64,000 nt of DNA from Paraconexibacter algicola (GTDB lineage: Bacteria > Actinomycetota > Thermoleophilia > Solirubrobacterales > Solirubrobacteraceae). The stretch is from contig NZ_PYYB01000002.1 of assembly GCF_003044185.1 (NCBI RefSeq), positions 248,001 to 312,000 on the forward strand. Direction: 5' to 3'. Each line of letters starts with the position of its first letter. The stretch's first letter is position 1. The position numbers were made by a program, and so were the translations under genes. Shown piece by piece: positions 5,488-49,223 of the stretch. Below the pieces are notes generated by a model. That model searched no databases. It worked only from the letters and a program-made list of their open reading frames with translations, and was not told the origin of the DNA.

Positions 5488-6456
5488 TCAGTCCATGGTG
5501 AAGACGATCTTGCCGAAGACGTCCCCGTCGACCATCGCGCGGAAGCCGCGGGCGGCGTCGGCCAGCGGCATCGTCTCCTGGATCACCGGGCGCACCCCGC
5601 TGGTCGCGCACAGCTGCACGAGCCGCGCGAGCTCCTCGCGCGAGCCCATCGTCGAGCCGAGGACCCGCAGCTGCAGGAAGAACACGCGCATCAGCTCCGC
5701 CGAGGGCGCCTCGCCGCTGGTGGCCCCGGAGACGACCAGCGCACCGCCCGGCTTCAGGCTGCGCAGCGAGTGCGCCCAGGTCGCCTCGCCGACCGTCTCG
5801 AGGACCGCGTCCACGCGCTCGGGCAGCCGCGCCCCGATCTCGAAGACGCGGTCGGCCCCGAGCTCCAGCGCGCGGGCGCGCTTCTCCTCGCTGCGCGACG
5901 TCGCCCAGACGCGCACGCCGGCGGCCGCGCCGAGCGCGATCGCCGCGGTCGACACGCCACCGCCCGCACCCTGGACCAGCACCGTCGAGCCCGGCTTGGC
6001 GTCGGCGCGCACGAACAGCATCCGGTAGGCGGTCAGCCACGCGGTCGGCAGGCAGGCCGCGTCCGCGAAGGACAGCTCCGCCGGCTTGGGGATGAGGTTG
6101 GCCCGCGGGACCGCGACCTGCTCGGCGAACGTGCCCGGATGGCGCTCGGACAGCAGCGAGCGGCGCGGGTCGAGCGTCTCCTCCCCGGACCAGGCCGGGT
6201 CGCCGATCACGCCGTGGACGACGACCTCGTTGCCGTCCTCGTCGACCCCGGCGGCGTCACAGCCGAGGATCATCGGCAGCTGCTCGGCCCGCAGGCCGAC
6301 GCCGCGCAGCGACCACACGTCGTGGTGGTTCAGCGACGCGGCCTTCACGGTCACGGTCGTCCAGCCCGCGGGCACCTCGGGCTCCGGGCGCTCCCCCACC
6401 TCCAGGGCGGCGAGCGGGTCGGCGTCGTTGGCGGTGGCGGCGTAGGCGGCGAGCAT
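5488..6456 (-). CDS. Zinc-independent MDR-family oxidoreductase (quinone oxidoreductase-like)
   Basis: 322 residues. A GroES-like N-terminal half (AASLNHHDVWSLRGVG; ILGCDAAG) is followed by a Rossmann NAD(P)H-binding half with QGAGGGVSTAAI and ATSRSEEKR. The four-cysteine structural zinc lobe of alcohol dehydrogenases is absent, which places it among quinone reductase or enoyl reductase-type MDRs. It ends 33 bp upstream of the cyclase fusion gene on the same strand, so cotranscription is possible. TAGGCT lies six bases before ATG, a leaderless arrangement. Substrate unknown. Confidence 0.85.
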   Translation of the reverse strand: MLAAYAATANDADPLAALEVGERPEPEVPAGWTTVTVKAASLNHHDVWSLRGVGLRAEQLPMILGCDAAGVDEDGNEVVVHGVIGDPAWSGEETLDPRRSLLSERHPGTFAEQVAVPRANLIPKPAELSFADAACLPTAWLTAYRMLFVRADAKPGSTVLVQGAGGGVSTAAIALGAAAGVRVWATSRSEEKRARALELGADRVFEIGARLPERVDAVLETVGEATWAHSLRSLKPGGALVVSGATSGEAPSAELMRVFFLQLRVLGSTMGSREELARLVQLCATSGVRPVIQETMPLADAARGFRAMVDGDVFGKIVFTMD

Positions 6457-6487
6457 GGCCCCAGCCTATGAGAGGGTGGGCGCCGAC

Positions 6488-7666
6488 ATGAGCTCGCCCG
6501 AGATCCCCTTCGCCAACTACCAGTACGAGATCTACCTGCGCGGCAGCATGATGAACCAGCGCCCGCGCCGGCCGCTGGACTGGCAGCGCCTGGAGGAGCA
6601 GGCCGCCGCGACGCTCGCCCGCGGCCCCTGGGGCTACATCGCGGGCGGTGCCGGGCGCGGGGACACGATGCGCGCCAACCAGGCGGCGTTCGACCGCTGG
6701 GCGCTGTCGCCGCGGATGCTGCGCGACGTCGCGCAGCGCTCGACCGCGCGGACCGTCCTGGGGACGCCGCTGCCCGCCCCGGTGCTGCTCGCGCCGATCG
6801 GGGTGCAGACGCTCGCCCACCCCGACGGCGAGCTCGCCACCGCGCGTGCGAGCGCCCGCACCGGGGTGCCGCTCGTCACGTCCTCGGCGTCGAGCTTCAC
6901 GTTCGAGGAGATCGCCGAGGCGAGCGGGGACACGCCACGCTGGTACCAGCTGTACTGGCCGAAGGACCGGACGATCGCGACGTCGTTCATCCGGCGCGCC
7001 GAGGCCGCCGGGTACAGCGCGCTGGTCGTCACGCTCGACACCTGGCTGCTCGGCTGGCGGCCGATGGACCTCGACGAGGGGTTCCTCCCGTTCCTGTGGG
7101 GCGAGGGCAACGTCAACTACCTCCAGGACCCCGCGTTCCGGGCGCTCCTGGCCGCCCCGCCCGAGGAGGACATGCAGGCGGCGATCGGGCAGTTCGCGTT
7201 CCAGTTCTCCAACCCGGCGGTCACCTGGGAGGACCTCGCGTTCCTGCGCGAGACCACCGAGCTGCCGATCGTGCTCAAGGGCATCCTGCGCGCCGACGAC
7301 GCGCGGCTGGCCGCCGAGCACGGCGTCGACGGGGTGATCGTCTCCAACCACGGCGGCCGCCAGGTCGACGGGGCGATCGGCGCGCTCGCCGCGCTGCCCG
7401 AGGTCGTGGACGCGGTCGGCGACCGGCTCGAGGTGCTCTTCGACTCGGGCATCCGCGGCGGCTCGGACGCGCTGAAGGCGCTGGCGCTCGGCGCCCGTGC
7501 CGTGCTGCTCGGCCGGCCGTACATGTGGGGGCTGGCGACCGGTGGCGAAGACGGCGTCGTCGACGTCGTGCGGTCGCTGCTGGCCGAGCTCGACCTCGCG
7601 ATGGCCCTCACCGGCCACCGCACGATCGACGACGTCGACCGCAGCGCCCTGGTCGCCACCCCGTGA
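6488..7666 (+). CDS. FMN-dependent alpha-hydroxy-acid oxidase, lactate 2-monooxygenase-like
   Basis: 392 residues from the ATG at 6488, chosen over an upstream in-frame ATG at 6455 because GAGAGGG precedes it and the longer form would overlap the divergent MDR start. The FMN-oxidase fold is clear: [34 protein letters not shown], and the active-site [10 protein letters not shown] with the catalytic His. The later DSGIRGGSD and LGRPYMWG segments bind FMN phosphate. The insert between residues 200 and 235 ([11 protein letters not shown] onward) resembles lactate 2-monooxygenase more than simple lactate oxidase. It probably oxidises L-lactate or a related 2-hydroxy acid. The next gene overlaps its stop by 4 bp. 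Confidence 0.87.
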
Positions 7667-41373: not shown

Positions 41374-43485
41374 GTGACGCCCACCGAACTGCCACACGGG
41401 ACGCTCTTCGCGGGCCACGAGATCCTCGGGGTCGCCGGGCGCGGCGGCATGGGCGTCGTCTACCGCGCGCGCCAGCTGGACCTCGACCGCACCGTCGCGC
41501 TGAAGCTCATCGCGCCCTCGCTGGCGGAGGACCCGTCGTTCCGCGAGCGGTTCATCCGCGAGTCCCGCGTGGCGGCGTCGCTGGACCACCCGAACGTCAT
41601 CCCCGTGTTCTCCGCAGGCGAGGAGGACGGCGTCCTGTACCTGGCGATGCGGTTCGTGCAGGGCGACGACCTGCGGACGCTCGTGCGGCGGGAGGGCCCG
41701 CTCAGCGGGCCGCGGGCCGCCCAGATCGTCCGCCAGGTCGGCGCGGCGCTCGACGCGGCCCACACGCGCGGCGTCGTGCACCGGGACGTCAAGCCCGCCA
41801 ACGTCCTGCTCGGCGAGGGCGACCACGCGTACCTGACCGACTTCGGCCTGACCAAGCGCGTGGACTCCGCCGGCGGCCAGACCCGGCCGGGCGGCTGGGT
41901 CGGCACGCTCGGCTACGTCGCGCCCGAGCAGATCCGCGGCGAGCGCGTCGACGCCCGCACCGACGTGTACGCGCTGGGGTGCGTGCTGCACCACGCCCTC
42001 AGCGGCGAGGCGCCGTACCGGCGGGACTCCGACGAGGCGACGATGTGGGCGCACCTGCACGACGACCCGCCACCGCTGGTGGTCGAGGGCCTCTCCCCCG
42101 CGTTCGACGCGGTGGTCGCCCGCGCGCTGGCGAAGGACCCGGCCGAGCGCTTCCCCTCCGCGGGCGACCTCGGGCGGGCGGCCCTCGCCGCCGCCGACGG
42201 CCGCGCGGACCTCGCCGCCGCCGCCGGCCGCGTCGTGGCGACCGGGGCGGCCGCGCCGCAGGGGCGCGACGACCGGCCCACCGCCGCCCCGCAGCCGCCG
42301 GCCCCCGCGACCGACCCGGACGCGACCCGGACCGGCACCCCGGCCACCGATCGCGTCCCCGGCGGTCCTCCCACCCCGGCCACCGACCAGGTGACGCCCA
42401 CGGGTCCGACCGCCGCCGGCCCGACCGCGACCGGCGGGCGCGCGGGCGGCGCCCGTCGCCCCGTCGCGATCGCCGCGGCCGCAGCCGTGCTGCTGGCGGC
42501 GGGCGGGATCGGCGCCGCGCTGCTGCTCGGCGACGGCGACGAGCCGACCACGCCGCGGACCGCGACGACCGGGACCACCACGACGACCACGGACCGACCG
42601 CGGGTCGCGCGGGTGACGGCGACGCTCAGCGCGGGCTCGCGGCCCAACGACGTGGCCGCCGGGCCGCGCGGGCTGGTGTGGATCGTCAGCAACCCCGACC
42701 GCCGCATGAGCCTCGTCGACGGCGACCGCGACCGCCGCGGCGACCGCCAGCCCGAGATCGGCCCGGGCGCGCAGAGCGTCGCGGCGGGCCTCGGGCGGAT
42801 CTGGGTCGTCAAGAACGGCACGAACTCGCTGATCCAGCTGAGCGACCGCAGCGGCGTGCGGACCGGCGCCGCGACCGTGCGGCTGCCCGCCGGGGAGCCG
42901 GTGCGCGTGCGGACCGGCGAGGGCGCCGTCTGGGTCGGCATCCGCGGCAGCGCCCCGGTCTCCCCGGACATGGTCGAGACCGTCGTGAAGATCGACCCCT
43001 CCAGCGGCACGCAGCAGTCGATCGCCGTGCGCGGCGGGGTCCAGGACCTCGACGTCGGCGCGGGCGCGGTCTGGGTCACCGGCCGCGGCAGCGAGACCGT
43101 CACCCGCATCGACGCGCGCACGGGCGCGCAGCGGCGGTCCTCCACGGGCCGGATGCCGCGCGGCGTCGCCGTGGGCGGCGGCAGCGTCTGGGTCGCCAAC
43201 AGCGCCGAGGGCTCGGTGACGCGGATCGCGGTCGACGACGCCACCGACCGCGACCGCGTCCGCGTGGGCACCGCGCCGCGGGGCGTCGCCTACGGGGCGG
43301 GGGGCGTCTGGGTGACCAACGAGCTCGACGACACCGTCACGCGGATCGACCCGCGCAGCAGCGAGGTCGTCGGCGAGCCGATCGACGGGGTGGGGCGACG
43401 GCCCGCCGCGCTCTCGGCCCGCGGGGACCGCGTCTGGGTCGTGTCGCCGCAGGACGGCACGGTCGCCGAGATCCGCGTGCCCTGA
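41374..43485 (+). CDS. Transmembrane Ser/Thr protein kinase with extracellular beta-propeller
   Basis: 703 residues, GTG start. A PknB/PknD-type kinase domain (about 12-270): Gly loop GRGGMGVVYRA, catalytic HRDVKPANVLL, DFGLTKR and APEQ activation-segment end. A Pro/Thr-rich linker and one transmembrane helix (about 362-387, VAIAAAAAVLLAAGGIGAAL) lead to an outer six- or seven-bladed beta-propeller (about 405-703) of repeats ending VWV(T/A)N. It senses an external signal and phosphorylates cytoplasmic Ser/Thr targets. The convergent FHA-HTH gene 3 bp away is an obvious substrate. Confidence 0.93.
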   Translation: MTPTELPHGTLFAGHEILGVAGRGGMGVVYRARQLDLDRTVALKLIAPSLAEDPSFRERFIRESRVAASLDHPNVIPVFSAGEEDGVLYLAMRFVQGDDLRTLVRREGPLSGPRAAQIVRQVGAALDAAHTRGVVHRDVKPANVLLGEGDHAYLTDFGLTKRVDSAGGQTRPGGWVGTLGYVAPEQIRGERVDARTDVYALGCVLHHALSGEAPYRRDSDEATMWAHLHDDPPPLVVEGLSPAFDAVVARALAKDPAERFPSAGDLGRAALAAADGRADLAAAAGRVVATGAAAPQGRDDRPTAAPQPPAPATDPDATRTGTPATDRVPGGPPTPATDQVTPTGPTAAGPTATGGRAGGARRPVAIAAAAAVLLAAGGIGAALLLGDGDEPTTPRTATTGTTTTTTDRPRVARVTATLSAGSRPNDVAAGPRGLVWIVSNPDRRMSLVDGDRDRRGDRQPEIGPGAQSVAAGLGRIWVVKNGTNSLIQLSDRSGVRTGAATVRLPAGEPVRVRTGEGAVWVGIRGSAPVSPDMVETVVKIDPSSGTQQSIAVRGGVQDLDVGAGAVWVTGRGSETVTRIDARTGAQRRSSTGRMPRGVAVGGGSVWVANSAEGSVTRIAVDDATDRDRVRVGTAPRGVAYGAGGVWVTNELDDTVTRIDPRSSEVVGEPIDGVGRRPAALSARGDRVWVVSPQDGTVAEIRVP

Positions 43486-43488
43486 CCG

Positions 43489-44172
43489 TCAGAGGTCGCG
43501 GACGGCGATGACGCCGCGCTGCAGCGCCTCGGCCACGAGCCGGGAGCGCTTCTGGTTCTGCGGCAGGTGCTCGATCCCGAACCGCTGGAACAGGCCGCGC
43601 AGGTGCGCCTTGACCGCGTCGACGCTGAGGTGCAGCGCGTCGGCGATCTCCTGGTTGGTGGCCGGGACGGCGAACTCGTCGTGCTTGTACGGGCGCGCGA
43701 GCGCGAGCAGGACCTGGCGCTGGGTCGCCGACAGCTCGGCGGGCGCCGCGCCGTCGCTGGCGACCTGGGTCGGCCGGGACTCCTCCAGCTCCGGCCGCCG
43801 GTAGGCCAGCAGCGTGCGGCCGACCCGCACGACGTCGCCGTCGCGCAGCCGGTACCGGCCGCTGATCCGCTGCTGGTTGACGTAGGTGCCGTTGCGCGAG
43901 AGGCCGTCGTCGCTGATCGTCCACTCGCCGGCGATCAGCTCGAGCTCGGCGTGCAGGCGGCTGACCTCGTCGTCCCAGCCCAGCGCGACGTCGCAGGTCG
44001 TGCCGCGGCCGAGGCTGAGCCGCTCCCGCGCGCCGTCGAGCTCGACGAGCGTCTGCGCGCCCTCGCCGTCGCGCAGCACGAGGAACGGGCGCCCGAGCCG
44101 CTCCGCATCGATCCGCGCGCGGAGCTCGGCCGGCGAGGCGGCGTGCGCGGCGAGCGGCGAGCGATCGGACAT
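43489..44172 (-). CDS. FHA domain-HTH DNA-binding protein
   Basis: 227 residues. An FHA domain (about 30-125) has the phosphothreonine-binding residues in SLGRGTTCDVAL, SRLHAEL and LSRNGTYVN. A C-terminal winged HTH (about 145-215; EIADALHLSVDAVKAHLRGL) resembles LuxR/sigma region 4. It would bind DNA in response to phosphothreonine on a partner. It converges on the kinase and is divergent from an ECF sigma gene, with three palindromes in the shared 154-bp gap. The kinase-FHA-sigma order suggests one signalling module, which is inference. Confidence 0.87.
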   Translation of the reverse strand: MSDRSPLAAHAASPAELRARIDAERLGRPFLVLRDGEGAQTLVELDGARERLSLGRGTTCDVALGWDDEVSRLHAELELIAGEWTISDDGLSRNGTYVNQQRISGRYRLRDGDVVRVGRTLLAYRRPELEESRPTQVASDGAAPAELSATQRQVLLALARPYKHDEFAVPATNQEIADALHLSVDAVKAHLRGLFQRFGIEHLPQNQKRSRLVAEALQRGVIAVRDL

Positions 44173-44203
44173 GCGCCAAGGGTCGCACAGCGTCCGGCCA
44201 CCT

Positions 44204-44297
44204 CCACACCTGGGTGTGGGATCCCGCCACCCCGGGGGTGGAAGGTGTGACCCCGGGGTGCCTGGGACGGGAGGGCGTGCGGGCGGAAGCTGCTTCC
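44204..44297 (+). promoter_or_regulatory. Cluster of palindromes between FHA-HTH and ECF sigma genes
   Basis: Three inverted repeats, CCACACC-TG-GGTGTGG (44204-44219), CCACCCC-G-GGGGTGG (44227-44241) and ACCCCGGGGT (44250-44259), have centres 20-23 bp apart, i.e. on one face of the helix. A fourth, GGAAGC-T-GCTTCC (44285-44297), precedes the sigma factor Shine-Dalgarno sequence. This looks like a multi-site operator, perhaps for the FHA-HTH protein. Confidence 0.55.
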
Positions 44298-44326
44298 ACC
44301 ACCCGACGCGACGAAGGACGACCACC

Positions 44327-44908
44327 GTGACCACCCTGCTGCTGCACCCCACCACCGCCCGCACCGCCACCGACGAGGAGCTCGTCGCCGCCGTGCGCGA
44401 CGGCGCCCACGGCGCGTTCGAGGCGATCCACGCCCGCTACGCCCACGCCCTGCTGGCCTACGCCCGCAACCTGCTCGGGGGCGCGCACCACGACGCCGAG
44501 GAGTGCGTCCAGGACGCGTTCGTCCGCGCGCTGCGCGCGCTGCGCGCCGACCCGGACCGGGAGATCACGCTGAAGGCGTGGCTCTACACGATCGTCCGCA
44601 ACGCCTGCCTGGACCGGCTGCGCAGCCGCACGAGCCGCTCGACCGTCGGCCTCGACGACCTCGGGGCGCTGCTGTCCGACCGCAGCGGCGACCCGCACGA
44701 CGTGCTGGCGCGGCGCGAGGCGGTCCGCGAGGTGGTCGCCCACGTCCGGGCGCTGCCCGAGCGCCAGCGGCTGGCGCTCGTGCGCCACGAGCTGGAGGGC
44801 CGCTCGCACGTCCACGTCGCGGCGAGCCTCGGCGTGACCCCCGGGGCCTCGAAGGCGCTCGTGCACCGCGCCCGGCAGGGCGTCAACGCCGCGGCGGTCG
44901 CGGCCTGA
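44327..44908 (+). CDS. ECF-family RNA polymerase sigma factor
   Basis: 193 residues from the GTG at 44327, preceded by AAGGA at eight bases. Region 2 shows HDAEECVQDAFVRALRALRA and LKAWLYTIVRNACLDRLRSR; region 4 shows GRSHVHVAASLGVTPGASKA with the HTH. No anti-sigma factor is adjacent. It is divergent from the FHA-HTH gene and near the Ser/Thr kinase, which suggests control through phosphorylation rather than an anti-sigma factor; this is inference. It overlaps the converging amidotransferase gene by 26 bp. Confidence 0.9.
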   Translation: MTTLLLHPTTARTATDEELVAAVRDGAHGAFEAIHARYAHALLAYARNLLGGAHHDAEECVQDAFVRALRALRADPDREITLKAWLYTIVRNACLDRLRSRTSRSTVGLDDLGALLSDRSGDPHDVLARREAVREVVAHVRALPERQRLALVRHELEGRSHVHVAASLGVTPGASKALVHRARQGVNAAAVAA

Positions 44909-45644
44909 CGGCCGCCTGCGCGTCGCGCAGCGCGGCGACCTCGCGCACGAACGCGGCGACGACCGGGCTCCCGGGATCGACCTCGGGGTGCCACTGCACC
45001 CCGACCGCGAGCCGGCGTCCCGGGTCCTCGATCGCCTCGACGAGGCCGTCGAACGGGGCCCGACCGCTGACGACGAGCCCGGCGCCGAGCGCGTCGACCG
45101 CCTGGTGGTGGTGCGAGAAGGTCCGGTGCACCGTCTCCCCCGCCAGCCGCGCCGCCGCCGAGCCGGGCTCGAGCGCGACCTCGTGCTCGTTGCCCGCCCA
45201 CGCGCCGACGGTCCGCCGGTGCTCCTCGGTGCCGAGCACGTCGGGGAGGTGCTGCACGAGCGAGCCTCCACGCGCCACGTTGAGCACCTGCATGCCGCGG
45301 CAGATCCCCAGCAGCGGCAGGTCACGCTCCAACGCCCGGCGGGCGAGCGCGAGCTCGTAGGCGTCGCGCTCGGGCGTGGTGACGGTGACCGCCGGGTCGC
45401 GCTGCGCCCCGTAGGAGGCGGGGTCGACGTCGGTGCCGCCGGTGAGCAGCAGTCCGTCGAGGAGGTCGAGCACCTCGTCGGGATCGTCGCGGTAGGCGGG
45501 GTCGGGCACGAGCATCAGCGCGTGCCCGCCACCGCGCTGCACGGCCTCGTGGTAGGCGGACGGGTTGAACGCGGCGGGCTCGTTCCAGGCGCCGTAGCGG
45601 ACGGGCTCGACCGAGGACGTGATACCGATGACGGGGCGCGACAC
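44883..45644 (-). CDS. Gamma-glutamyl-gamma-aminobutyrate hydrolase family protein (class I amidotransferase fold)
   Basis: 253 residues, GTG start. Peptidase C26 signatures: VIGITSSVEP, LLLTGGTDVDPASYG, nucleophile Cys in GICRGMQVLNVA, and the His/Glu of VQWHPEVDP. PuuD-type enzymes hydrolyse gamma-glutamyl-GABA in putrescine breakdown; other C26 members have different substrates, and no puu genes are nearby. TAGGAT lies six bases before the GTG. Its 3' end overlaps the sigma factor gene. Confidence 0.88.
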   Translation of the reverse strand: MSRPVIGITSSVEPVRYGAWNEPAAFNPSAYHEAVQRGGGHALMLVPDPAYRDDPDEVLDLLDGLLLTGGTDVDPASYGAQRDPAVTVTTPERDAYELALARRALERDLPLLGICRGMQVLNVARGGSLVQHLPDVLGTEEHRRTVGAWAGNEHEVALEPGSAAARLAGETVHRTFSHHHQAVDALGAGLVVSGRAPFDGLVEAIEDPGRRLAVGVQWHPEVDPGSPVVAAFVREVAALRDAQAAVRPRPPRR

Positions 45645-45650
45645 ACGGCG

Positions 45651-45669
45651 ATCCTACGGTCCATAGGAT
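45651..45669. promoter_or_regulatory. Inverted-repeat divergent promoter
   Basis: ATCCTA (45651-45656), a 7-base spacer, then TAGGAT (45664-45669). Each half is the -10 of one gene: TAGGAT on the minus strand lies six bases before the amidotransferase GTG, and TAGGAT on the plus strand lies eight bases before the hydratase ATG. The whole intergenic region is 33 bp. Confidence 0.6.
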
Positions 45670-45677
45670 GCGCGCCC

Positions 45678-46508
45678 ATGAGCGACTACGTGCTCGCGCA
45701 GGAGACCCCGACGGTGCGGACCTACCGCAACGGCTCCGCGCTGAAGATCGAGCTCAACCGGCCGGAGGCCCTGAACGCCTTCAACGGCGCGCTGGCGCGG
45801 GAGCTCCAGCAGGAGCTGACGGCCGCCGCGCAGGACGACGAGATCCGCGCGGTGATGCTCACCGGGGCGGGGCGCGCGTTCTCCTCCGGAGCCGACCTCA
45901 TGTCCTTCCAGGACACCGAGGACCCGGTGCCGGTGACCGAGAACGGCCGGCCGGACCTCCGCAAGACGCTGCACGACCGCTACCACCCGATCATCGAGAC
46001 GCTGCGCTCGATGCCCAAGCCGGTCGTCAGCGCCGTCAACGGGCCCTGCGTCGGGGTCGGGCTGGGCATCGCGCTCGCCGGCGACCTCGTCGTGGCGCAC
46101 GAGAGCGCCTACTTCCTGCTCGCGTTCGTCAACATCGGGCTCGTGCCCGACGGCGGCTCCTCCCTCTTCGTCCCGGCGCGCATCGGCGCCGCCCGCGCCG
46201 CCGAGATGGCGATGCTCGGGGAGAAGGTCCCCGCGGCACAGGCCCTGGAGTGGGGCCTCGTCAACCGCGTCCACGACGACGCGAGCTTCATGCCCGAGGC
46301 CGAGAGGCTCCTGGAGCGCCTCGCCACCGGGCCGACCCGGTCCTACGCCGGGACCAAGCGCCAGCTCAACGCGCACGCGATGCACAGCCTCACCGCGCAG
46401 CTGGCCCTGGAGGCCGACATCCAGCAGGAGATGGCCGATACGGCCGACTTCATCGAGGGTGGCATGTCCTTCGCGCAGAAGCGCCCGCCCGCCTTCTCGG
46501 GTCGCTAG
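45678..46508 (+). CDS. Enoyl-CoA hydratase/isomerase
   Basis: 276 residues from the ATG at 45678 (an ATG at 45668 is out of frame). Crotonase fold with oxyanion-hole segments AFSSGADLMSFQD and GPCVGVGLGIALAGD, and NIGLVPDGGSSLFVP where ordinary hydratases have a catalytic Glu; the Asp here is closer to PaaG-type isomerases. It acts on enoyl-CoA in fatty-acid or phenylacetate degradation. Probable TAGGAT leaderless promoter. Confidence 0.9.
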   Translation: MSDYVLAQETPTVRTYRNGSALKIELNRPEALNAFNGALARELQQELTAAAQDDEIRAVMLTGAGRAFSSGADLMSFQDTEDPVPVTENGRPDLRKTLHDRYHPIIETLRSMPKPVVSAVNGPCVGVGLGIALAGDLVVAHESAYFLLAFVNIGLVPDGGSSLFVPARIGAARAAEMAMLGEKVPAAQALEWGLVNRVHDDASFMPEAERLLERLATGPTRSYAGTKRQLNAHAMHSLTAQLALEADIQQEMADTADFIEGGMSFAQKRPPAFSGR

Positions 46509-46560
46509 GGCGCCAGGCAGGACTCGATCCGGCCGATCACCAACTAATATCCCCGCCGCC

Positions 46561-47496
46561 GTGAGTGCCATGAACCTGATCTCCACCCGCCGCCGGACGC
46601 TCGTCCTGGCGCTGCTCGCCATCTTCGGCCTGACGCTGGTCCTCTCGGGGACCGCCTCCGCCGACCTCCTCACGCCGGAGGACGGTGGCTCCCCGAACGC
46701 CGACAAGATCGACGATCTCTACAAGTTCGTCCTCGTCATCGCCGTCATCATCTTCGTCGTCGTCGAGGGCGCGCTGTTCTACTCGATCTACAAGTACCGG
46801 GCCCGCAAGGGCGCGGTCGCCGCGCAGATCCACGGCAACACGCGCCTGGAGATCGGCTGGACCGCCGGCGCCGCCGCGATCCTCGTCGTCCTCGCCGTGC
46901 TGACGTTCGTCCAGCTCGGGGACATCCGCAACCCGGAGAACTCCGGGCCCAACGGCCTCCCGCTCGCCGACGGCGTCCAGACCGCCAGCGTCACCAAGCG
47001 CCTGCCCCCGAACGGCAAGAGCCTCAACATCGAGGTCAACGGCCAGCAGTACGTGTGGCGCTACACCTACAACGGCGACAACGACGGCAACCCGCTGAAC
47101 GACCCCTTCGCCTACGAGGAGATGGTCGTCCCCACCGACACCACCGTGACGCTCGACATCCGCGCACAGGACGTCGCCCACTCGTGGTGGATCCCGGCCC
47201 TCGGCGGCAAGTTCGACGCCGTCCCGGGCTACACGAACCACACCTGGTTCAAGATCAGCAAGCCCGGCGTGTACACGGGCCAGTGCGCCGAGCTCTGCGG
47301 CCGCAACCACGCCAACATGACGGCCCGCGTCCGCGCCGTGCCGCCCGCCGAGTACGAGCGGTGGATCGCCCAGCAGACCACCGCGATCCAGGACGCCAAC
47401 AAGGCCGCCCAGGTCAAGCGCCGCCAGGTCGAGAGCGAGCTGTCCGGTGACAGCGCCGCCGCCGGCTCGGGCGCCTCCACCACCGAGATGCCCTGA
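46561..47496 (+). CDS. ctaC: Cytochrome c oxidase subunit II, aa3 type
   Basis: 311 residues from GTG 46561 (ATG 46570 also in frame). An N-terminal signal/anchor (LVLALLAIFGLTLVLSGTAS) is followed by two transmembrane helices and a cupredoxin domain holding the binuclear CuA site: His207, Cys242, Cys246, His250, Met253 (GQCAELCGRNHANM). There is no C-terminal cytochrome c domain, unlike the copy at 54.4 kb. It accepts electrons from cytochrome c and passes them to subunit I. TAATAT (46545-46550) is a good -10. First gene of the ctaC-ctaD-ctaB operon. Confidence 0.95.
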   Translation: MSAMNLISTRRRTLVLALLAIFGLTLVLSGTASADLLTPEDGGSPNADKIDDLYKFVLVIAVIIFVVVEGALFYSIYKYRARKGAVAAQIHGNTRLEIGWTAGAAAILVVLAVLTFVQLGDIRNPENSGPNGLPLADGVQTASVTKRLPPNGKSLNIEVNGQQYVWRYTYNGDNDGNPLNDPFAYEEMVVPTDTTVTLDIRAQDVAHSWWIPALGGKFDAVPGYTNHTWFKISKPGVYTGQCAELCGRNHANMTARVRAVPPAEYERWIAQQTTAIQDANKAAQVKRRQVESELSGDSAAAGSGASTTEMP

Positions 47497-47519
47497 CCCC
47501 TCGAGGACCCTCAGCTCTT

Positions 47520-49223
47520 ATGGCCACTGCCACTGCCACGAACACCACCGCCGCCGTCCCGCAGATCGTCGCCCACGGCGTCGAGAAGCCGAACACGGGC
47601 TGGACGTCGTGGGTCACCACGACGGACCACAAGAAGATCGGGATCATGTACCTGGTCTCGACGTTCGTCTTCTTCATCCTGGGCGGCGTCGAGGCGCTCA
47701 TGATCCGCCTGCAGCTCTCGCAGGCGGACAACACCCTCCTCTCCCCGGAGGTCTACAACCAGCTGTTCACGATGCACGGGACGACGATGATCTTCCTGTT
47801 CGTCGTGCCGATCATGGCCGGCTTCGGCAACTACTTCGTGCCGCTCATGATCGGGGCCCGGGACATGGCGTTCCCGAAGCTCAACGCGCTGTCGTTCTGG
47901 ATGCTCACCGCCGGTGGCGTCGTCTTCTACGCGTCGATCTTCTTCTCCCCGCCGGAGTGCGGCTGGACCTGCTACTCGCCGCTGTCGGACGACACGTACC
48001 TGCCGTCCGGAGGCGTCGACGCCTGGATCTTCCTGATCCACCTCACGGGCATCAGCTCGCTCGTCGGTGCGATCAACTTCTACGCGACGATCGCGAACAT
48101 GCGTGCGCCCGGCATGGGCTGGGGTCGCATGCCGCTGTTCTGCTGGGCGATCCTCGTCTACGCGATCCTGCTGATCCTCGCGCTGCCGGTCATCGCGGGC
48201 GCGGTCACGCTGCTGCTGACCGACCGCCACTTCGGCACCCACTTCTACGACGCGTCCCAGGGCGGCTCGCCGCTGCTGTGGCAGCACCTGTTCTGGTTCT
48301 TCGGGCACCCCGAGGTCTACATCATGGTGCTGCCGGGCTTCGGGATCATCTCCGAGATCCTGCCGGTGTTCAGCCGCAAGCCGATCTTCGGCTACAAGGC
48401 GATCGCCGCGTCGACCGTCGTGATCGCGTTCCTCGGCCTCCTGGTCTGGGCGCACCACATGTTCTCGACGCCGAGCCCGACGATCGTCCTCGTCTTCTTC
48501 ATGCTCAGCTCGTTCCTGATCGCCGTCCCGACCGGCGTGAAGATGTTCAACTGGATCGCCACGCTCTGGCGCGGCACGATCGAGTTCACGGTCGCGATGC
48601 TGTTCGCGATCGGCTTCCTCTTCACGTTCCTCATCGGCGGCATCACCGGCATCTTCCTGGCGATCTTCCCGGTCGACTGGCAGCTGACCGACACGTACTT
48701 CGTCGTGGCCCACCTGCACTACGTGCTGGTCGGCGGCGCGGTCCTGTCGATCTTCGCCGGCATCTACTACTGGTTCCCGAAGATGACGGGTCGGATGCTC
48801 GGCGAGGGCCTGGGCAAGCTCAGCTTCTGGCTCATGCTCATCGGCTTCCACGTCACCTTCCTCATCCAGCACTCGATCGGCCTCGACGGCATGCCCCGTC
48901 GCGTCTACGAGTACCCGGACGTCGGAAACCTCGAGCTGTACAACCTGATCTCCACGATCGGCTCCTTCATCCTCGCCCTCGGCGTGCTCGTGACGATCAT
49001 CAACGTCGTGATCTCGCTGAAGAAGGGCGCGGTCTCCGGGCCCGACCCGTGGAAGGGCAACACGCTCGAGTGGTACACGACCTCGCCGCCGCCGGTGAAC
49101 AACTTCGACTCCGTGCCGCGCATCCGCTCGGTCGAGCCGATGAAGGACATCCGCCGGCAGGTCCTGCGCCAGCAGACCGAGAAGGCGCCGGTCGTCGACG
49201 CCGAGGCGCCCGCCACCGCGTAG
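47520..49223 (+). CDS. ctaD: Cytochrome c oxidase subunit I, A1-type heme-copper oxidase
   Basis: 567 residues, about twelve transmembrane helices. The D-channel glutamate is present: FGHPEVY, Glu265. Heme and CuB ligands include WAHHMF and the HxH region of VAHLHYVLVGG. This is the A1 class of heme-copper oxidase (Glu in xGHPEV). It reduces O2 to water and pumps protons. It lies 23 bp after ctaC, with GAGGA upstream, and is followed by a hairpin, then ctaB. Confidence 0.97.
   Translation: MATATATNTTAAVPQIVAHGVEKPNTGWTSWVTTTDHKKIGIMYLVSTFVFFILGGVEALMIRLQLSQADNTLLSPEVYNQLFTMHGTTMIFLFVVPIMAGFGNYFVPLMIGARDMAFPKLNALSFWMLTAGGVVFYASIFFSPPECGWTCYSPLSDDTYLPSGGVDAWIFLIHLTGISSLVGAINFYATIANMRAPGMGWGRMPLFCWAILVYAILLILALPVIAGAVTLLLTDRHFGTHFYDASQGGSPLLWQHLFWFFGHPEVYIMVLPGFGIISEILPVFSRKPIFGYKAIAASTVVIAFLGLLVWAHHMFSTPSPTIVLVFFMLSSFLIAVPTGVKMFNWIATLWRGTIEFTVAMLFAIGFLFTFLIGGITGIFLAIFPVDWQLTDTYFVVAHLHYVLVGGAVLSIFAGIYYWFPKMTGRMLGEGLGKLSFWLMLIGFHVTFLIQHSIGLDGMPRRVYEYPDVGNLELYNLISTIGSFILALGVLVTIINVVISLKKGAVSGPDPWKGNTLEWYTTSPPPVNNFDSVPRIRSVEPMKDIRRQVLRQQTEKAPVVDAEAPATA

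Follow-up and report, generated by a model that had tools for sequence, protein, structure and literature searches.

In Mycobacterium tuberculosis, the transmembrane Hanks kinase PknH phosphorylates the regulator EmbR and raises its promoter binding, and the FHA domain of EmbR is required for the kinase interaction (PMC4601284). SigE-CseBC of Streptomyces coelicolor (ECF39) and other transcriptionally controlled extracytoplasmic function (ECF) sigma factors lack an anti-sigma factor, and a membrane-sensor system activates their transcription (PMC8999054). In ECF43 (EcfP-PknT, EcfK-PknS), a Hanks kinase gene adjoins an anti-sigma-free ECF gene and the kinase phosphorylates the sigma factor itself, in which the acidic DxxD motif is usually missing (PMC13147305). 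Here, we analysed computationally a locus of Paraconexibacter algicola (Solirubrobacterales), located in a stretch of 64,000 nucleotides (contig NZ_PYYB01000002.1, positions 248,001 to 312,000; hereafter the window), which gathers in 3.5 kb a kinase, a predicted phosphothreonine reader with a helix-turn-helix (HTH) domain (FHA-HTH protein), a putative operator, a promoter and an ECF sigma gene as output, with one testable candidate phosphosite. The locus looks like a Ser/Thr-kinase counterpart of a two-component system.

EmbR-PknH is the nearest FHA-regulator analogue, as both modules contain an FHA-bearing DNA-binding regulator and a transmembrane Hanks kinase, which here, too, would phosphorylate its regulator. 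EmbR, however, is a Streptomyces antibiotic regulatory protein (SARP) with an N-terminal OmpR-type DNA-binding domain, a BTA domain and a C-terminal FHA domain and targets embCAB directly, whereas our protein combines an N-terminal FHA domain, a disordered threonine-containing linker and a C-terminal GerE HTH, and its local target would be an ECF sigma gene. In its logic, the module is nearest to SigE-CseBC, i.e. an anti-sigma-free ECF under transcriptional control, but CseBC pairs a histidine kinase with a response regulator instead of a Ser/Thr kinase with an FHA-HTH protein. ECF43 offers the nearest kinase-sigma pairing, while the module here keeps the acidic sigma2.2 motif and has an intervening transcription factor. 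GarA and OdhI share with the FHA-HTH protein the closest FHA fold and sequence and a threonine outside the FHA domain, but they lack a DNA-binding domain and carry this threonine in an N-terminal tail, not in a linker to an HTH. PknD of M. tuberculosis is, like the kinase here, a transmembrane kinase with an extracellular beta-propeller sensor; we know of no FHA-HTH neighbour of PknD. To our knowledge, a dedicated transcription factor with a defined operator is rare among bacterial Hanks-kinase pathways, most of which are pleiotropic. Signalling in the Solirubrobacterales has been little studied, and our searches of the open-licence literature turned up no account of an FHA-LuxR/kinase/ECF module. 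If our reading is true, the locus adds a further way to control an anti-sigma-free ECF sigma factor.

Materials and Methods

We searched 60 relatives with the FHA-HTH protein and with the sigma factor and added one scan of named genomes (loci are denoted by L, genomes by G). Domains were called with Pfam, and structures were predicted with AlphaFold2 and compared with Foldseek; a PDB profile search, TIGR02937 and hydropathy were used further. For the array test, a motif was trained on one sigma clade and applied to the other clade, with 300 dinucleotide shuffles per region.

Results

Open reading frames, Pfam and AlphaFold2 agree with a first-pass annotation of the locus, made from the letters alone, in that a transmembrane propeller kinase gene converges on the FHA-HTH gene, which is in turn divergent from the ECF sigma gene across a gap of 154 bp (44173-44326; Table 1). 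We found this trio layout in about 20 Solirubrobacterales loci; the loci counted here and below come from related genomes, many of them metagenome-assembled, and their counts are not independent. In a maximum-likelihood tree, the sigma-linked FHA-HTH proteins group in one supported clade (97/98), into which L133 alone intrudes; its divergent gene encodes a sugar transferase. Kinase/FHA-HTH pairs without a sigma neighbour are more widespread (L082, L083, L084, L123 and Geodermatophilus), which ties the kinase to the FHA-HTH gene rather than to the sigma gene.

The divergent gap contains three palindromes exactly where the annotation had placed them. It had given their spacing as one to two helical turns; the distances of 22.5 and 20.5 bp correspond to two turns each. 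A fourth palindrome, reported at 44291, does exist (GGAAGC-T-GCTTCC, 44285-44297), but it is not palindromic in relatives and overlaps a conserved -10-like element, and we rejected it as an operator. Under a motif built from the sister clade alone, the window array outscored all of 300 dinucleotide shuffles of the region. The 4.7-Mb genome contains no other full array (E 4e-16 for the window array, 0.05 for the runner-up); here, the gap between both values is informative rather than the E-value itself, the model having been trained on the window array. Genome-wide, the full array model gave no further FHA-HTH target, although single weak sites may exist elsewhere. The strict site CCACACCnnGGTGTGG with at most one mismatch occurs here and once elsewhere in the genome, the latter by the looks of it by chance, and a strict two-site pattern found no match even at the locus itself because the spacers vary. 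Based on the uniqueness of the full array, the FHA-HTH protein seems to act as a local switch, with the sigma factor as the amplifier.

Is the array a conserved element, and which gene does it accompany? Arrays with 20-23-bp spacing are present in 19 of the 21 sigma-linked loci examined, although L115 is degenerate with one clear site, so that the palindromes passed the check in relatives on which the annotation had staked its operator. With the cross-clade motif, three-site arrays of this spacing were found in all tested loci of the opposite clade; 18 of 19 loci were matched by 0/300 shuffles and the worst, L115, by 2/300. Other FHA-HTH homologues served as an internal negative control and mostly score like their own shuffles, with L135, L150 and L169 as high-scoring exceptions. 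The array is kept in the absence of sigma in L148 and L179 (Geodermatophilus, divergent trypsin-like protease), in L133, in L082 and, more weakly, in L123 (Solirubrobacter, divergent unknown protein). In the Geodermatophilus version (L179:4501-8275, L148:4584-8353), the FHA-HTH gene and the same operator are accompanied by a convergent kinase whose extracellular part is shorter and of another kind. Conversely, the array is absent from the sigma-linked L081 (G034; 6388-7614), which has a broken FHA-HTH gene whose HTH part was not found; this locus is a natural test of linkage. The distant genome G102 encodes an FHA-HTH protein (57% identity) whose gene is preceded by an array; a second, unlinked array (L208:9740-9840, G102:C314), with GACCCT 31 bp past site 3, stands in front of a gene for a small predicted membrane protein, on another contig than the FHA-HTH gene. 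The array thus goes with the FHA-HTH gene and not with the sigma gene, and its persistence without sigma, its absence in L081 and the unlinked copy in G102 point to the FHA-HTH protein as its predicted binder.

The three sites are fixed with respect to a predicted promoter of the sigma gene. Of 20 aligned loci, 19 have a GAnnnT element at a constant place past site 3 (T in 20/20, A in 19/20), whereas shuffling predicts such a match at 3.4% per locus; its distance to site 3 is near-constant (29.5-33.5 bp; 30-33 bp in nearly all loci). By contrast, site 1 stands anywhere between 18 and 70 bp from the FHA-HTH start in loci whose arrays are clear, and this difference in phasing argues for activation at the sigma promoter. 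In six loci (L075, L079, L104, L108, L115 and L118), the sigma-gene ATG lies 6-7 nt past GAnnnT; their sigma mRNAs are probably leaderless, and on this basis we placed the likely +1 in the window. Relative to this position, the site centres lie at about -86.5, -64 and -43.5. LuxR-type class II activators have their sites centred near -42.5, and a site 3 near -43, next to the -35-like element and at fixed phase, fits this geometry, given the +1 predicted from the leaderless homologues. The -35-like CTGG[GA] is present in the window's clade and in Geodermatophilus. The FHA-HTH mRNA is probably leaderless as well, its predicted -10 standing 6 nt before the ATG; in many relatives a similar nAnnnT is followed after 6-10 nt by the start (by eye). 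Further, autoregulation of the FHA-HTH gene is likely because site 1 overlaps its own predicted promoter. We rejected autoregulation of sigma from an ECF promoter of its own: the same GAnnnT precedes the protease gene that takes the place of sigma as the divergent gene in Geodermatophilus, and is hence not sigma-specific.

The FHA-HTH protein consists of an FHA domain (residues 53-118), a disordered linker (residues 130-143, predicted local distance difference test (pLDDT) score below 50) and a four-helix HTH (residues ~149-218) in the AlphaFold2 model. Residues G55, R56, S71, H74, N94 and G95 are invariant among 71 homologues, and this conservation together with the fold predicts that the domain reads phosphothreonine. 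By both Foldseek and the PDB profile search the domain is nearest to GarA/OdhI; the profile matches comprise GarA, OdhI and the EmbR FHA domain, and NarL-type HTHs including VraR and VpsT. The GerE match (26.3 bits, cut-off 23.5) makes the C-terminal part a GerE/LuxR (NarL)-type HTH. Membership in two-component response regulators was rejected, since Pfam finds no REC domain and the protein is partnered with a Hanks-type kinase, as was membership in EmbR/SARP, since a GerE HTH stands in place of the OmpR-type DNA-binding and BTA domains, neither of which has a Pfam match. Within the linker, Thr135 is kept by all but one of the 71 homologues, with an entropy of 0.11 bits compared to 1.7-3.5 bits in the remaining disordered stretch. 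The kinase site of GarA/OdhI is the threonine of an N-terminal ETTS motif, which belongs to a tail and not to the FHA domain (PMC8546545). Because Thr135 is invariant in a disordered linker next to a GarA/OdhI-type FHA domain, it is our best guess for the phosphosite. The genome also encodes a paralogue of the FHA-HTH protein (47%; G000:C1:1007376-1008029, L069), without an array and near another kinase and a pyridoxal phosphate-dependent decarboxylase.

The kinase carries HRDVKPAN and DFG in its kinase domain (residues 20-260), a transmembrane helix at about residues 366-385 by hydropathy and a C-terminal extracytoplasmic sensor (residues ~388-703), which identifies it as a Hanks-type transmembrane Ser/Thr kinase. 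The sensor is predicted as an all-beta propeller (pLDDT 91), with Vgb (virginiamycin B lyase) and YncE propellers as top Foldseek matches. PknD of M. tuberculosis is a propeller-sensor kinase, too.

The sigma factor has sigma2 and sigma4 only (Sigma70_r2 3e-18, r4_2 2e-9, TIGR02937 above cut-off), as defines an ECF (group 4) protein. As the annotation had noted, the locus contains no anti-sigma gene; the next gene encodes a convergent peptidase C26 (44883-45644, minus strand). ECF43 sigma factors are recognised by loss of the acidic DxxD in sigma2.2, with a phospho-acceptor threonine (PMC13147305, PMC8999054). Here, the motif D-A-E-E-x-V-Q-D is intact and the homologous D/E residues are kept in homologues, so that activation of sigma by phosphorylation is not needed and ECF43 membership was rejected.

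Table 1. Coordinates of genes and predicted regulatory elements of the locus (window positions).
Feature	Position	Strand	Centre	Details
Hanks-type Ser/Thr kinase	41374..43485	+		Pfam Pkinase 7e-47, NHL 1e-4
FHA + GerE/LuxR-type HTH protein	43489..44172	-		ATG at 44172; Pfam FHA 3e-17, GerE 6e-6
Predicted -10 GACCCT of FHA-HTH gene	44179..44184	-		6 nt before ATG
Predicted operator site 1, CCACACC-TG-GGTGTGG	44204..44219		44211.5	overlaps predicted -35 region of FHA-HTH gene
Predicted operator site 2, CCACCCC-G-GGGGTGG	44227..44241		44234	
Predicted operator site 3, ACCCCGGGGT	44250..44259		44254.5	~-43.5 from predicted sigma-gene +1
Predicted -35-like CTGGGA of sigma gene	44262..44267	+		18-bp spacer
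Predicted -10 GAAGCT (GAnnnT) of sigma gene	44286..44291	+		predicted +1 ~44298; region of the fourth palindrome
ECF sigma factor	44327..44908	+		GTG start; sigma2 residues 36-102, sigma4 residues 140-184

Discussion

Based on these observations, we propose that an extracellular signal would be sensed by the propeller of the kinase and that the active kinase would phosphorylate the FHA-HTH protein, most likely at Thr135. The phosphothreonine would then be bound by an FHA domain, either its own or that of another protomer, which would alter dimerisation or release the HTH. Next, the FHA-HTH protein would bind the three in-phase sites cooperatively and, as a class II activator, turn on the weak primary-sigma-type promoter CTGGGA-18-GAAGCT of the sigma gene, and the newly made sigma factor, for which the locus holds no anti-sigma factor, would transcribe a regulon. 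We consider this explanation as a whole probable. A pathway from signal over kinase and FHA-HTH protein to sigma was already thought likely in the first-pass annotation; the conserved neighbours and the array that tracks the FHA-HTH gene support it, while phosphorylation of the FHA-HTH protein by the kinase is a step we infer from linkage and the invariant linker threonine.

Several observations weigh against this explanation. Homologues that have no similar kinase next to them (Nocardia, Rhodococcus) conserve Thr135 just as well, so that this residue is not specific to this kinase; its conservation could be structural. L114 has lost the array despite an intact kinase, FHA-HTH protein and sigma factor, and G102 has the FHA-HTH protein and arrays with no similar kinase nearby. 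In addition, the -35-like element is weak, and the second sigma clade mostly lacks it. Finally, the unphosphorylated FHA-HTH protein might repress the sigma gene, with kinase phosphorylation freeing it from the three sites. Such a derepression would be in line with site 3 adjoining the -35-like element, with the three sites covering the whole divergent promoter region and with GarA/OdhI, where self-binding of the phosphothreonine by the FHA domain switches the protein off. Yet a repressor would tolerate sliding of its sites, whereas the distance from site 3 to the -10 element is near-constant over divergent clades, and three in-phase sites at a poor promoter are what dependence on an activator leads one to expect; we thus regard repression as unlikely.

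Could the kinase instead act on the sigma factor directly, as PknS does on EcfK in ECF43, leaving the FHA-HTH protein as an autoregulator or scaffold only? Both genes are neighbours, and phosphorylation of an ECF sigma factor by a kinase is known elsewhere (PMC13147305). However, D-A-E-E is conserved here where ECF43 proteins usually lack the acidic DxxD, and the FHA-HTH gene occurs with a neighbouring kinase and no sigma in L082, L083, L123 and Geodermatophilus, which makes this route very improbable. The least probable reading, with hardly any weight in our judgement, is that another regulator or sigma-RNA polymerase binds the array and the FHA-HTH protein is a bystander. Some FHA-HTH homologues indeed have no upstream array, but the array stays with the FHA-HTH gene where sigma is replaced, is absent where this gene is broken and recurs unlinked in a genome that encodes the protein; moreover, NarL/LuxR-type HTHs bind such palindromes.

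Returning to kinase-driven activation through the FHA-HTH protein, we speculate, with about even chances, that the locus represents a modular actinobacterial class parallel to two-component systems. In this class, a swappable extracellular sensor on a Hanks kinase would be combined with a constant FHA-linker(T)-GerE protein and an equally constant three-site, two-turn operator at the class II position, an intra- or intermolecular phosphothreonine-FHA switch would serve as relay, and the outputs (ECF sigma factor, secreted protease, sugar transferase) would be exchangeable.

Neighbouring genes

The genes downstream of sigma in relatives have no Pfam family in common. In the second sigma clade, a conserved 61-aa open reading frame lies directly 3' of sigma (L077:6215-6397, minus strand; L110:1597-1779; L109, L111, L112, L113, L116, L117 and L081); the window's clade has no match to it, and it is possibly a small sigma-associated or anti-sigma protein. 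A 715-aa protein without a Pfam match is encoded immediately 3' of sigma in L075 (8971-11118) and is a possible regulon member. In the window's clade, the module adjoins enoyl-CoA hydratase-like and cytochrome c oxidase genes in conserved order (window 45644-49223).

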